Below the pieces are notes generated by a model. That model saw nothing but the letters and a program-made list of their open reading frames with translations. It ran no database searches and was not told the DNA's origin. Shown here one piece after another: positions 16,646 through 21,332 of a DNA stretch of 64,000 bases (position 1 is the stretch's first letter; every line of letters starts with the position of its first letter). The stretch is from positions 1 through 64,000 of the forward strand of contig JAJDDB010000009.1 in NCBI GenBank assembly GCA_029260575.1. The letters are read 5' to 3'. The translations under genes were made by a program, and so were the position numbers. Source of the stretch: Phycisphaerales bacterium. GTDB taxonomy: Bacteria > Planctomycetota > Phycisphaerae > Phycisphaerales > SM1A02.

Positions 16646-17896
16646 ATGCGCACGTCAAGACAGTTGAATCGCTTTGTATGTGCCGCTGCGTTGGTGCTGC
16701 AGTGTTTCGCATTGCAGGCGATCGCGCAGTCGAATGCCGTGGATGAATCAGAGGCTGCATCTGTGTTCTCACTTCAGGCAGAGCATTTGTACAACGGCGT
16801 GAATCGGCCGTTGATGATTCGCGTTGGTGAGAGCAATTCGATTGGTGAATTCGCGTTGGTGTTGCTGGATGCGCAGCATCGGATTGTCTCCGGCCCGATT
16901 GCGGTGCGGGCCGGTCGCGTGGATGTGTCGGTGCTGATGCCGGAGATCTGGCAGTTGCGTGAAACGGTGTACCTGCAACTGTTGGAATACGATCGGCCGA
17001 CTGGTTCTGCGTTGGTGTTGCAGCCGATGCTGACGCGGATGGTTCCCCAAACGAAGCAGGCGATGCGGCCGGGCGGCGGGGCGAAGTACACGAAGATCAC
17101 CGGGTGGCGGAGTGAAATGGAACTTGCGCCGGTTGAAGAAGATGTTGCGAGTGATATTGCAACGGATGAAAGCGAAGACGGCCAGCGGGAAGGGGCTGTT
17201 GAGGCCGATGCATCGCAGATGAATACACCTGCGCCGATTCCGGTGCAGGACAATGCATCTGCGGTGTTCAGTGACAGCGAACAGATGTTGTCAGGGATTC
17301 GTGCGTACCCCGAGCGTGATGTTGAGATGATCACGACCGAAGGTCGGATTGTATTGATGATGCGGCCGGATGAGGCGCCCAACACTGCGTGGAATTTTCT
17401 GCAGTTGTGTGAAGGTGGATTTTATCGAGAGGTTGCGTTTCATCGTGTGGTGCCCTTGGATCGAGCGGGCCGGCCGTTTGTGATACAGGCAGGCGATCCA
17501 ACTGCGACGGGTGAAGGCGGTGCAGGGTATTGGCTGCCGATTGAGCCGAGTGATTTGGCGCATGATTTGGGTGTGATTTCGATGGCGCGTGCGGATGATC
17601 CGGATTCCGCGGGTAGTCAGTTCTTCATTTGTCTTTCGCGGGAGGGGACTGCACGTTTGGACGGTCAGTATTGTGCGTTCGGGATGACGCTTGAAGGTGC
17701 GGAGACGATTCGCAAGATTGCGGATACGGAGCTTGCGGATGTCGGCGCGGGGCAGCCGGTGCGGGCGCCGCTGATACTTGAGACGCGTCTTGTTGCAGCG
17801 CCGCCGCGTATGCCGGGGGTGCCGCGGTTGCCGGAGTGGATGCAGCCAGCCGACCCGATTGCGCAGCCGAACAAGCCGAAGCGCGTGCCGAGATAG
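16646..17896 (+). CDS. Secreted cyclophilin-type peptidyl-prolyl isomerase
   Basis: The protein (416 residues) starts with a signal peptide (MRTSRQLNR, a hydrophobic stretch, cleavage near LQAIAQS). A family-unknown region of about 200 residues and an acidic linker follow. Residues 220-380 form a cyclophilin domain: APNTAWNFLQLCEGGFY, FHRVVP with the catalytic Arg context, IQAGDPTATGEGG and MARADDPDSAGSQFFI. It would assist folding of exported proteins in the periplasm. The ATG at 16646 with a GGAG upstream gives the best signal peptide; GTG 16625 and ATG 16631 are alternatives. The octamer repeat begins 12 nt after the stop. Confidence 0.88.
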   Translation: MRTSRQLNRFVCAAALVLQCFALQAIAQSNAVDESEAASVFSLQAEHLYNGVNRPLMIRVGESNSIGEFALVLLDAQHRIVSGPIAVRAGRVDVSVLMPEIWQLRETVYLQLLEYDRPTGSALVLQPMLTRMVPQTKQAMRPGGGAKYTKITGWRSEMELAPVEEDVASDIATDESEDGQREGAVEADASQMNTPAPIPVQDNASAVFSDSEQMLSGIRAYPERDVEMITTEGRIVLMMRPDEAPNTAWNFLQLCEGGFYREVAFHRVVPLDRAGRPFVIQAGDPTATGEGGAGYWLPIEPSDLAHDLGVISMARADDPDSAGSQFFICLSREGTARLDGQYCAFGMTLEGAETIRKIADTELADVGAGQPVRAPLILETRLVAAPPRMPGVPRLPEWMQPADPIAQPNKPKRVPR

Positions 17897-18322
17897 GATA
17901 TGGCGAAAGCCAAACAGCCAAACAGCCAAACAGCCAAACAGCCAAACAGCCAAACAGCCAAACAGCCAAACAGCCAAACAGCCAAACAGCCAAACAGCCA
18001 AACAGCCAAACAGCCAAACATTTGTGCTGGGGGTTTGTGATGCGATGTAGGTTTGTGCTGTTGTTGGTGTGGATGTGAAACTGACAAACGATGAATCGCG
18101 CGGACAGCTTGCAGAGGCAACCGGTGTACTGTTCCGATTCGCAATTACGGAGAAGGAGATTGAGGAGACGGAGGAGAGTCTCGGAGGTCCGTTTGCGCAA
18201 CGATGGCCGGGTGTATACTTCCAGTTGCGCGAGGTTGATTCTGATAGGTCGGCAACTGCGCATGTAATCGAGCAATGAACAACACTTCGTTTGTTTTGCG
18301 AAGCGCCAGTTGTGTAACGGGG
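17897..18322. other. Gap with octamer repeat and no supported gene
   Basis: The first third is the tandem octamer array. After it, a 69-residue frame at 18069-18278 (EKEIEETEESLGG in the middle) and a 12-codon frame starting near 18040 (MRCRFVLLLVWM) are open, but neither has a convincing ribosome-binding site or family. The short hydrophobic start next to a longer frame in another phase could be the remains of a frameshifted secreted-protein gene. Confidence 0.4.
17908..18019. repeat. Tandem octamer array, 14 perfect AGCCAAAC copies
   Basis: The 8-bp unit AGCCAAAC is repeated exactly 14 times without a mismatch (112 bp). The unit length is not a multiple of three, so each strand reads through in every frame with a 24-bp period and yields long spurious frames. 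The perfect identity indicates recent or continuing slippage. It sits immediately downstream of the cyclophilin gene and upstream of the end of the HAF/dockerin gene. Confidence 0.97.
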
Positions 18323-19573
18323 TCACGGAATCGGACATGTGCCCCAGTTTTCGAGCAGCGCGAGCAGATCGAAGACATTCACTTGCCCATCGGGCGGGCC
18401 GGCTGCTGCGTCGGTGAAGTCTGCCGGGCAATTGACGCATGCGCCCCATGTCTGCAGAAGTTCAAGCAGGTCGAACACATTGACAACGTTGTTGTCATCG
18501 ACATCGCCTGCGGCGCAGAACGGTGGCAGTTGCAATATCCATGCTTCGAAATCACCGTTCGGATTGGTGCCGTTGCCTGCGATGACGCGGCCGTTGTCGG
18601 AAATTGCTTCAGCGCCGAGAAGCGTCCAACCGGTGAGATCGAGGCCGTAGATGTTTGTTGCAAGCTGTTGCACCGAGCGCATGCCGCGCGTTTCGTCCCA
18701 GATCATTGCGCCGTGGCGGTCTGACAGGCCGACGATGAACGCGCCATCGCCGGAAACATCGTGGGCGTGGCTATCAGTAACTGCGCCGCGCTCGGCGAGT
18801 TCAAGATTGACCAGTCCGGTGTTGGTTGTCCATAGAAATGCATCCTGGCCGACGTCGCCGATGGCATCGCCGACAATTGTGGAGCCATCTGCGGAGATCG
18901 CCAGAGCGAGTCCGTAATGCAGGCCGCCGGGAATATCACCGAGGGCAACCATGCCGTTGAGTTTGGTCCAGTGCGTTGGCTCGACATCGGGTGATTCCAT
19001 AAAGCTCTGGCCGCTGAAGGTTGAGCCATCGTGATCAGCATCGAAAAAGAACGCGTCGATGATTGTTGAGCCGAGCGCGCCGAAGGTGGTCCAATCGTCA
19101 AGTGCATTCCAGGTTGCTGCTTCGTTGCCGTTGGTTGTTGCGCAGAATCCGACGACTGTCGCGCCATTGCCGGAGATTCCGAGCGCTGCGCAGTCGCCGA
19201 TGGATTGCATTCCTGTTGCCTGTGTCCAACGAAATGCGTCGCCGCTTCGACCGACGATTACTGCTCCATCAAACGACACCGCGTTGGCAATACCGTTTTC
19301 TGTATCGGTGCCAATGTGCCCAAGCGCTGTTATGCCGATAGATTGGCGCCATCGGTATGCGCGCAGATCGCCTTGTGCGTTGTCGTTTGCGGCGCTCCAC
19401 CCGACGACGGTAGTTCCATCGCCGGAGATTGCGGAGACGCTGCTTTGGAATGCGCCGCCGTCAAGATCGCCAATTGGCAGAAACGTTGCTGATCCGCCTG
19501 CAACAGTGGCGCCGAAGTACAACGACACGCCAGCAATTGCACTTCGAATGTACGGATTCCGCAACGTGTTCAT
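18323..19573 (-). CDS. Secreted HAF-repeat protein with tandem GC-type dockerin
   Basis: The 416-residue protein has a signal peptide and a beta-propeller-like region of HAF-type repeats (ALGHIGTDTENGIANAVSFDG, then ISADGSTIVGDAIGD and further copies of the S-x-DG-x-x-IVG pattern). The C-terminus holds two dockerin-like EF-hand units, GDVDDNNVVNVFDLLELLQTWG and PDGQVNVFDLLALLENWG, each followed by Cys. This tail is common on exported proteins of Phycisphaerae and related planctomycetes. The ATG at 19573 follows GGAGGG, so I prefer it to the upstream frame. The cell-surface role and any binding partner are unknown. Confidence 0.85.
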   Translation of the reverse strand: MNTLRNPYIRSAIAGVSLYFGATVAGGSATFLPIGDLDGGAFQSSVSAISGDGTTVVGWSAANDNAQGDLRAYRWRQSIGITALGHIGTDTENGIANAVSFDGAVIVGRSGDAFRWTQATGMQSIGDCAALGISGNGATVVGFCATTNGNEAATWNALDDWTTFGALGSTIIDAFFFDADHDGSTFSGQSFMESPDVEPTHWTKLNGMVALGDIPGGLHYGLALAISADGSTIVGDAIGDVGQDAFLWTTNTGLVNLELAERGAVTDSHAHDVSGDGAFIVGLSDRHGAMIWDETRGMRSVQQLATNIYGLDLTGWTLLGAEAISDNGRVIAGNGTNPNGDFEAWILQLPPFCAAGDVDDNNVVNVFDLLELLQTWGACVNCPADFTDAAAGPPDGQVNVFDLLALLENWGTCPIP

Positions 19574-19719
19574 AGCAGGCCCTCCGCAGGTTGGCGACAC
19601 TGTGTACAGGTACATGTTGGCGGAGACAGCCCGGATTGCAACGATTGATTCTCAGACGTTGCTTGAACGCCCGGGAATGTTTCTCGAACTAGCCTGAATT
19701 CACAGTTCGAGAAGGATTT

Positions 19720-19740
19720 GCCGAGACCGGCAGTTTTTCT
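19720..19740 (+). terminator. Small terminator-like hairpin before the structured RNA region
   Basis: TGCCG and CGGCA form a 5-bp stem with an AGAC loop, followed by GTTTTTC. It faces right, although no plus-strand gene precedes it. It may end antisense transcription from the HAF gene region. Confidence 0.45.
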
Positions 19741-19999
19741 ATTGCGTTGGGGCCGGTCGAGGCGATAATTCCTGCATCGCGGAATGCGACCCCCAAACCA
19801 GGAGCGAACCTCCTGCCGGGCGGGGCAAGCTGCTCGCGACGACTGCTGCCTGCCGTGCCGATCTGATTACCTCGTGGCGCGGATGAAACGGGTTGCGGGC
19901 GATGAGCCCTCGGGGACGCTCGAGGGGTAAAGGAGCCCGGCGGCGAGTGCTGTCACGCTCGCGACGGCTGGGGAGACCCTTAGCGAAGGAGGTGATTCT

Positions 20000-20038
20000 G
20001 TGAACCATTGTGACTGTATAAGTGGGCTGCACTATTGA
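20000..20038 (+). CDS. Possible 12-residue peptide behind an extended Shine-Dalgarno
   Basis: GTG at 20000 starts a 12-codon frame (product MNHCDCISGLHY). The upstream AAGGAGGTGAT matches 11 bases of the complement of the 16S rRNA 3' end, with 7 nt between GGAGG and the start. The frame ends inside the 5' arm of the nested hairpin at 20024-20075, so ribosome passage would open that hairpin. Whether it is translated is unknown; the SD-like element may have another role within the RNA. Confidence 0.3.
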   Translation: MNHCDCISGLHY

Positions 20039-20097
20039 CCCGTGCTCCCGACGGGACTGCACGGTATTGCAGCCCTACCAAGTTCAAGAACGAACGG

Positions 20098-20133
20098 CCC
20101 GGCGATTCCCGAAAGGAGTCGCCGGGTTTTTTT
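20098..20133 (+). terminator. Intrinsic terminator of the candidate ncRNA
   Basis: CCCGGCGA pairs with TCGCCGGG, extended inward by TCC/GGA, and is followed by seven T residues (20127-20133). It is one of the two clearest rho-independent terminators in the window and faces right, against the convergent pilT. Confidence 0.9.
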
Positions 20134-20219
20134 CATTTGGTGAGTGCTAAGAAAGACATCGACTCCCGTTGGTCGTCGATAGGCCCACTGAAGTGGGCCC
20201 TGCCGTCGGGACGAGGATT

Positions 20220-21332
20220 TCAACCCTTGACGCGCTGGACGAGTGTGTCGGCCTTGACTTCGATACCGCGGACTTTGCTGCGCAGGGCATCGCGGTTGGG
20301 GGCGAAACGCTCAGCGACTTTCAGATCGACCCATTCTTCATTGACGAGGCGCGCGAGGCTTGATGTAAAGCTGTGCATGCCTTCATGTTCACTACCGCCG
20401 ATGACTGCGGGCAGGTCGTCGTCTTCGCCATCGCGGATTTTTTCAGCGACGGTGCTGTTGACGAGCAGCACTTCCGTTGCGGGGACACGCTTCACATCCT
20501 TGCGGACGGTCGGCAGAAGTTTCTGTGCCATGACCGCGCGCAAGCCGGAAGCCAGACCTGAGCGGATGAATGGATGATCCTTGGATTCAAAGAACTCAAG
20601 GATTCTGTTGAATGCCTGCATCGTGTCTGCAGTGTGCAGCGTGCAGAACACGAGGTGACCGGTTTCTGCTGCCTGGATGCCAGCAAGCATGGTGACGCGA
20701 TCGCGCAGCTCGCCGATCATGATGACATCAGGGTCCTGGCGCACCGCAGAGCGCAGCGCCGTCGGGAAATCGGGTACATCGATACCTATTTCGCGTTGAC
20801 TGAGATACGACTGCTTCGGTCGGAAGAGATACTCAACCGGGTCTTCGATGGTGATGATGTTTGTCGGTCGGGTCTCATTGATGTGATCGACCATCGCTGC
20901 AAGCGTTGAACTCTTGCCGCTGCCGGTTACACCGCAGACGATCACCATGCCTTCGTGCGTGCGTTCGGTCAATTCCTCATACACAGGCGGAAGGTTGAGC
21001 GAGGAGAAGTCGGGGATTTCAGGATTCACTCGTCGAATTGCTGCGTGCAGTGCATGGCCCGCGTGGAAGACGCTGCATCGAAAGCGCTCTTCGCCAATGT
21101 GGTGCGAAAAATCAACGCCGCCTTTTGCTTCGAGCTCATTACGAATGTGATCGGGAATGATCGGCGCGAGTAACTGCTTGGTATCGTCAGCGTTGAGTTC
21201 TGCGGAATCGATTCGGCACAGCCGCTCTGCCACGCGGAGCACCGGCGGCGAACCGGTCTTGATGTGCAGGTCAGATGCTTCGACCTCTTTCATCTTCAGT
21301 AACAGTCGTTGAATCGTAAGAGCACCGAGCAT
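20220..21332 (-). CDS. pilT: Type IV pilus retraction ATPase PilT
   Basis: This 370-residue secretion ATPase has the PilT N-terminal domain (SDLHIKTGSPPVLRV), Walker A GVTGSGKSS with Lys140, Asp box IITIEDPVEYLF, Walker B DPDVIMIGELRD and His box TGHLVFCTLHT. It would power pilus retraction and twitching or DNA uptake from the cytoplasmic side. The ATG at 21332 is preceded by GGGAGG. No other pilus genes are next to it; the PilZ protein near the right end is a possible functional partner. PilT-like PilU cannot be fully excluded. Confidence 0.92.
   Translation of the reverse strand: MLGALTIQRLLLKMKEVEASDLHIKTGSPPVLRVAERLCRIDSAELNADDTKQLLAPIIPDHIRNELEAKGGVDFSHHIGEERFRCSVFHAGHALHAAIRRVNPEIPDFSSLNLPPVYEELTERTHEGMVIVCGVTGSGKSSTLAAMVDHINETRPTNIITIEDPVEYLFRPKQSYLSQREIGIDVPDFPTALRSAVRQDPDVIMIGELRDRVTMLAGIQAAETGHLVFCTLHTADTMQAFNRILEFFESKDHPFIRSGLASGLRAVMAQKLLPTVRKDVKRVPATEVLLVNSTVAEKIRDGEDDDLPAVIGGSEHEGMHSFTSSLARLVNEEWVDLKVAERFAPNRDALRSKVRGIEVKADTLVQRVKG

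Follow-up and report, generated by a model that had tools for sequence, protein, structure and literature searches.

The locus and its limits

In the window (by which we mean the whole stretch of 64,000 nucleotides that was analysed), a plus-strand unit sits in the gap between two minus-strand genes: a HAF-repeat protein gene at 18323-19615, on which a GC-type dockerin model scores just below its cut-off (28.2 vs 29 bits), and a PilT/PilU-family ATPase gene at 20220-21332 (TIGR01420, 358.5 bits), which is a convergent neighbour and lies outside the RNA. The unit begins with a promoter-like element at 19742-19769 (a -35 box TTGCGT at 19742-19747, a 16-nt spacer and a -10 box GATAAT at 19764-19769) and ends with a predicted intrinsic terminator at 20096-20133, both on the plus strand. 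With these two elements as its limits, the putative transcript would run from 19776 to 20133 and be about 358 nt long. An earlier reading of this DNA, made from the letters only (hereafter the sequence-only reading), had proposed a large structured RNA with its own plus-strand terminator at 19745-20133; the terminator and the 3' end are retained here, whereas the proposed start falls inside the promoter-like element and gives way to a predicted one at 19776. Further to the left, a perfect tandem repeat of the 8-base unit AGCCAAAC (14.1 copies, 17908-18020) directly follows an ORF that ends at 17896, and several frames are open through it.

Relatives align with an equivalent promoter-like element, and, ahead of the core, the top-scoring sigma-70-like site reaches p<=0.05 against shuffles in 51 of 82 homologue loci; the site of the window, scored alone, gives p=0.23, and a consensus promoter scan of the window reported no promoter. 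Of 81 homologue loci, 72 have a predicted terminator at most 130 nt from the core, compared with 51 of 405 shuffles. The folding z-score is -2.57 for 19735-20133 and becomes -3.56 when the RNA is taken from the putative start at 19776. An RNA on the reverse strand was considered and rejected, given the weaker folding of that strand (z = -1.45) and the fact that the ORF described below, the promoter-like element and the terminator are all on the plus strand.

The sequence-only reading had also described the RNA as standing alone, with the gene to its right on the opposite strand, and the survey of other loci agrees with this. Among 83 homologue loci, examined with flanks of roughly 1.5 or 3.5 kb, or less where a contig ended, no common neighbour family was found; the largest families have 10 and 9 members, and the PilT/PilU type occurs in 9 of the 83. 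Where a frame of at least 120 codons is present in the flank (79 loci, the frames being called crudely, from stop to stop), the nearest downstream ORF is on the same strand in 50 loci and on the opposite strand in 29, the window being one of the latter. Judged by these flanks, the RNA family is a free-standing one without a conserved neighbouring gene.

Distribution of the family and known RNA classes

The homologues were sought with several tools. A blastn search in 60 relatives detected the RNA in 19 of them at E<=2e-9, and two covariance models, R1 (alignment A1, 21 sequences) and R3 (broader, 63 sequences), were then applied to larger genome sets. R1 found one copy each in 111 of 397 genomes of the class at E<=0.001, and R3 found the RNA in 157 of the same 397 at E<=0.01 (a single match in 155, two in G326 and three in G181) and in 128 of the 284 high-quality ones. 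Within the phylum, R3 detected one copy each in 80 of 392 genomes at E<=0.001, 60 of which are outside the class. The R1 and R3 counts, which rest on rough E-values, are probably lower limits, because stricter search filters were used and R3 missed two copies that R1 had seen. A further model, R2, made from 13 sequences of other orders, gave matches in 42 of the 392 phylum genomes at E<=0.001; since its hits in the genome of the window included the antisense of the 16S 3' end (a match that R3 did not make there), its matches L227-L251 were judged by eye.

A pattern scan of one genome per named species (84,980 species) returned 103 stretches, 102 of which are confirmed by R1, and the record titles of 98 of the 103 are those of planctomycetes. 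The titles of the others (L127, Deltaproteobacteria; L142, Cyanobacteria; L155, Thermoleophilia; L204, Leptolyngbya; and L192) carry no planctomycete name, and these stretches are perhaps mislabelled or mixed MAGs; L155 is the one stretch that R1 does not confirm.

The RNA is not found in every genome close to that of the window. Twenty genomes that belong to the same family or order and gave no R3 match were checked, and two of these (G032 and G284) do have a copy, diverged and with an ORF of 14 codons; in the remaining 18, the motif AAGGAGGTGAT, discussed below, is absent, or is the 16S antisense, or lies in other sequence, and never occurs with an ORF of 6-18 codons, in an exact-motif search which would miss more diverged copies. 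Neither a model match nor the exact motif with a short ORF was found in G133, G025, G028, G005, G013, G234 and further genomes of this family. The RNA thus seems to have been lost, or to have diverged strongly, in some sublineages of its own family, and its absence from the matches in several of these genomes implies that it would not be indispensable there.

The sequence-only reading had recognized by eye no core of RNase P RNA, tmRNA, SRP RNA, 6S RNA or B12 riboswitches and had proposed a comparison with Rfam, whose outcome points the same way. In Rfam release 15, there is no match above the gathering score in the whole window, nor above the gathering cut-off in 18 homologue loci, and a search of 19600-20230 at E up to 10 returns only weak matches, far under the cut-offs (best E 0.93), so that no known class is indicated. 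Two candidates were rejected individually: tmRNA (RF00023), with no Rfam match in the window, a negative ARAGORN result and the tmRNA of this genome located elsewhere (144 bits); and RNase P RNA (RF00010), with no match here and the copy of this genome on another contig (255 bits).

We regard the existence of the family and of its ORF as near certain, and the best reading is that the family is a new one, without a match in Rfam; the comparison with the Rhodopirellula-1 motif is one by table description. That motif (Weinberg 2010, PMC2864571) is listed as a candidate RNA of Planctomycetes and Proteobacteria, in a table row that has no Rfam number and apparently classes it as 'likely cis-regulatory'; it resembles the present family in being a candidate RNA in Planctomycetes and, as far as the table describes it, could be identical with it. 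No description of the family was found in the open-licence literature searched, in the parts of it that were accessible. The Planctomycetota would in this way gain a new and widespread RNA family which is missing from Rfam.

Fold, mini-ORF and pseudoknot

The sequence-only reading had proposed a search for homologues and covariation in relatives, and the structured RNA that it described is borne out by both, with strong conservation and compensatory changes. In alignment A1, 34 pairs in six helices are standard in 95.5% of cells, compared with 84.8% in shuffles, and compensatory changes affect 24 of the 34 pairs (10.9 in shuffles) and 71 cells (20.1 in shuffles). Not one of 500 shuffles reaches the observed value for pairing, compensated pairs or compensated cells, and slid controls are less than 50% paired.

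All helices are on the plus strand. The 5' domain (19777-19839) is predicted to be closed by helix P0, which pairs 19777-19782 with 19834-19839; the partner segment lies about 57 nt on from the 5' end, consistent with the start expected from the promoter, and in a permutation test over the loci of alignments A2 and A3 with both elements found (54 distinct pairs), the mean helix score is 13.7, compared with 12.2 in permutations, none of which (0/500) is as high. Hairpin P1 (19907-19927, with a GACG tetraloop at 19915-19918) has all eight of its pairs compensated and 98.8% of its cells paired over the 21 sequences of A1. It is followed by P2 (19936-19941 with 19967-19972; 95.2% of A1 cells paired, 2/6 pairs compensated), enclosing P3 (19943-19948 with 19957-19962; 93.5%, 5/6), the two together spanning 19936-19972. 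The nested hairpin at 20024-20075, another element of the sequence-only reading, consists of H1 (20024-20031 with 20068-20075; 97.0% of A1 cells paired, 4/8 pairs compensated) and, within it, H2 (20040-20045 with 20059-20064; 88.0% and 3/4, four pairs being counted), whose loop at 20047-20055 contains GACG, a motif that is therefore displayed in the loops of both P1 and the H2 hairpin.

The hairpin segments were also examined for pairing in an alternative order, in sets thinned by divergence to 18, 26 and 47 sequences. For the first half, the observed value is reached by 74, 17 and 10 of 5000 permutations, respectively, which is suggestive; for the second half, by 208, 738 and 3 of 5000, a mixed result, one of the thinned sets being no better than chance. 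As a separate observation, the 5' strand of P2 (19936-19941) and the terminator stem, near its start, both contain CCCGGCG, and the 3' strand of P2 could pair either with the 5' strand of the terminator or with that of P2; the same is seen by eye in the terminators of several relatives. Such pairing would suggest antitermination, which we do not claim.

Downstream of P2 lies an extended Shine-Dalgarno (SD) element, GAAGGAGGTGATTC at 19985-19998 on the plus strand, which is the complement of the 16S tail. The 16S 3' end, read directly in this genome, is GGCTGGATCACCTCCTTT, and the match of 11 bases that the sequence-only reading had given is real and longer than stated, with 14 contiguous pairs when G-U is included. 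The motif AAGGAGGTGAT (19986-19996, followed by TC) occurs at only two sites in the 4.1-Mb assembly, here and in the antisense of the 16S tail, and its reversed control pattern at none. The predicted duplex with the 16S tail of the same genome has an energy of -22.0 kcal/mol (median of the 83 homologues, -24.4), compared with -17.8 for the best and -11.3 for the median of 76 window frames of at least 200 codons, which are not all genes and were each allowed their best start. A complement of the 16S tail (10 or more of the 14 letters of AAAGGAGGTGATCC) starts 14-15 nt before the start codon in all 83 aligned homologues. The 7-mer GGAGGTG is present in 79 of them, AAGGAGGTGAT in 58 and the full 15-mer AAGGAGGTGATCCAG in 35, and the start codons are GTG in 75, TTG in five and ATG in three.

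The element leads, as the sequence-only reading had noted, into a frame of 12 codons, MNHCDCISGLHY (20000-20038, plus strand), with a GTG start and a TGA stop, hereafter the mini-ORF. Its final codons make up the 5' strand of H1, and its stop codon (20036-20038) is placed between H1 and H2, a position inside the hairpin that is also seen in aligned homologues. The ORF has 9-14 codons in 77 of the 83 homologues, 6-18 in 82 and 33 in one. The first stop is found at 9-14 codons in 126 of 134 sequences in frame and in 0/134 in either other frame (134 of 145 distinct sequences were parsed under a stricter rule, 11 being dropped); outside the class, it is found at 7-15 codons in 43/45, compared with 1/45 and 5/45 in the other frames (45 of the 60 homologues, some nearly identical to one another). 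The SD element and the start codon are partly selected for by the search, because the models were built on that region; the position of the stop codon is hardly selected for. We consider it probable that translation is the conserved property of the family.

What is conserved does not extend in the same manner to the peptide. In 20 close pairs there are 13 synonymous and 34 nonsynonymous codon changes, that is, a synonymous fraction of 0.277 over a small sample of 47 changes, compared with 0.251 expected at random. It appears, on this evidence, that the frame, its length and its stop are kept and that the peptide apparently is not. Outside the class, peptides share little except length and, often, an R-R, R-W or K-G step, the codons of which resemble an internal SD; and no conserved run of codons for a single amino acid was found in the 83 aligned ORFs.

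The mini-ORF is also predicted to take part in a pseudoknot (19952-20014, plus strand), in which the P3 loop GTCACG (19952-19957, the last base of which also takes part in the weakest P3 pair) pairs with TGTGAC in the ORF (20009-20014). Because the ORF segment hardly varies within a family and the register shifts between families, this pairing was assessed by a permutation test and not by pair counts in fixed columns. The mean score is 13.1, compared with 11.1 when partners are permuted, and 0/200 permutations are as high (115 usable of 145 distinct homologues); in the thinned sets of 18, 26 and 47 sequences, 0/5000 permutations reach the observed value, where known helices, used as positive controls in the same sets, give 2, 0, 0 and 1, 0, 0 of 5000. 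The partners change together (loop/ORF) from CATACT/AGTATG in L062 to GTACATG/CATGTAC in L071, ACCACC/GGTGGT in L116 and TTCGCCG/TGGCGAA in L094, although the register differs between families and there is little or no pairing in L066, L073 and L085. The promoter-like element, the spread over the phylum, the maintenance of the mini-ORF as an ORF and this predicted pseudoknot of the P3 loop with the ORF all go beyond the sequence-only reading.

Ribosome passage as a possible function

The core of the structure is a putative translation unit, which would be kept for its frame, length and stop and apparently not for its peptide. Since the frame is conserved and the peptide is unselected, the simplest reading is that ribosome passage itself is the function, and since no neighbouring gene is conserved, the action would be in trans. 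We infer both the translation of the mini-ORF and the output of the RNA from sequence comparison. On this basis, we regard the chances as evenly poised that this is a stand-alone RNA in which the loading and transit of ribosomes gate the structure, and which acts as a switch in trans. We advance more tentatively, as a possibility somewhat short of even, that the act of translation is the signal, the RNA being a ribosome sensor which holds the 16S tail, is opened by one short round of translation and reports initiating capacity in trans.

In such a mechanism, 30S subunits would dock by way of their 16S tail, whose pairing with the RNA is predicted to be very strong, even with the pseudoknot closed. 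The SD element, the pseudoknot, the ORF and H1 being interlocked, an initiating or translating ribosome would have to open both the pseudoknot and H1, so that initiation and the short transit would disrupt them, and once at the stop codon, a ribosome would in addition mask the 5' strand of H2, so that the 3' strands could refold. In this way the RNA would read out the availability of initiating ribosomes. The conformational change (an exposed P3 loop, a freed 3' strand of H1 and GACG loops opened or closed) might then alter, in trans, how the RNA binds a partner (protein or RNA) or how stable it is.

Free-standing bacterial RNAs are normally classed either as non-coding or as mRNA, and we know of no described RNA class in which being translated is the signal. 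If the RNA is indeed ribosome-gated, it would be a translation sensor in a phylum whose RNA biology is little known, as well as a natural case of very long pairing between an mRNA and the 16S tail, the effect of which on initiation can be measured. Several known systems share part of the layout. The tmRNA (ssrA) is also structured and about 350 nt long, with pseudoknots and a short ORF ending in a hairpin, but to our knowledge it has no SD and no start codon, both of which are present here; moreover, no tRNA or tmRNA was found at this locus. Dual-function sRNAs (RNAIII, SgrS and others) are likewise free-standing and carry a small ORF, but the examples known to us have peptides of conserved sequence, whereas the present family keeps frame and length only and has an unusually long 16S complement. 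The large orphan bacterial RNAs (OLE, GOLLD, ROOL, raiA) have an elaborate conserved fold; they are similar to the window RNA in that fold and differ from it in the SD and mini-ORF at its core and in its lack of an Rfam match, and we know of none among them with such a conserved core. In leader-peptide attenuators, finally, a short leader ORF is translated and hairpin pairing depends on the position of the ribosome. The short ORF is shared with these attenuators, among them rnTrpL/peTrpL of Sinorhizobium, described as an attenuator RNA that acts in trans (PMC7298713), and hairpin pairing that depends on the ribosome may be; the conserved downstream gene, the run of codons for a single amino acid and the conserved peptide are not.

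Among the alternatives, the one that survives best, which we nevertheless consider unlikely, is that of a decoy or holding RNA for 30S subunits, whose tail complement and mini-ORF would bind or slow ribosomes and so tune the free 30S pool or the access of other mRNAs, any conformational change being secondary. It would account for a tail complement that exceeds in length the SD pairing of all 76 long window frames, and for the internal SD-like stretch in the ORFs outside the class (-9.4, compared with -5.8 in shuffled ORFs; 39 ORFs, 0/100 shuffles reaching the observed value). However, this stretch is weak in the class of the window (-6.2 vs -5.6, 108 ORFs), though there too it is reached by 0/100 shuffles, and a complete in-frame stop would free ribosomes quickly. 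A pseudoknot with codons is not needed for a decoy, a single gene copy would have to be very highly expressed to reach the abundance required, and members of the hibernation factor family HPF were found in 39/39 genomes, of which 22 have a detected copy of the RNA and 17 do not, with no link seen between the two. As an observation on the out-of-class ORFs, several of them (L227, L237, L234, L241 and others) have AGGAGG or AGGTGG before the stop codon.

That the RNA is an mRNA for a functional micropeptide of 9-14 residues is improbable. The start, frame and stop are conserved and peptides are similar within the order (e.g. xCDCxxGLHx), but the codons conserved there are the ones involved in the pseudoknot and H1, the synonymous fraction matches the neutral expectation and, across the phylum, the peptides have little in common beyond their length. 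We give a comparably low probability to a helper of 16S 3'-end maturation or quality control, which would bind the finished or unfinished tail while the ORF tests new 30S subunits: the long tail complement, complete as a 15-mer in 35 of the 83 aligned homologues, would suit such a role, but in every one of the 83 the site stands at an ordinary initiation distance from the start codon. Least probable of all is a cis attenuator or leader, in which translation of the leader ORF would decide on terminator readthrough into the next gene. In its favour are the leader-peptide-like layout, hairpin segments with two potential pairings and a next ORF on the same strand in most of the loci counted; against it are the 29 of 79 loci (the window included) with that ORF on the opposite strand and the lack of any conserved neighbour. 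As to mutually exclusive hairpins, the mini-ORF runs through H1 and the pseudoknot, and the alternative pairs have partial support.

Returning to gating by the ribosome, a further layer might exist at the 5' end of the RNA. The predicted 5' end (19777-19785) is complementary to the end of the SD element and the start codon (19995-20003), and in the minimum-energy fold of the window RNA these segments pair with each other, over the start codon, instead of forming P0. Because this fold covers the start codon, the 5' end might act as a further gate on initiation, at least in this species.
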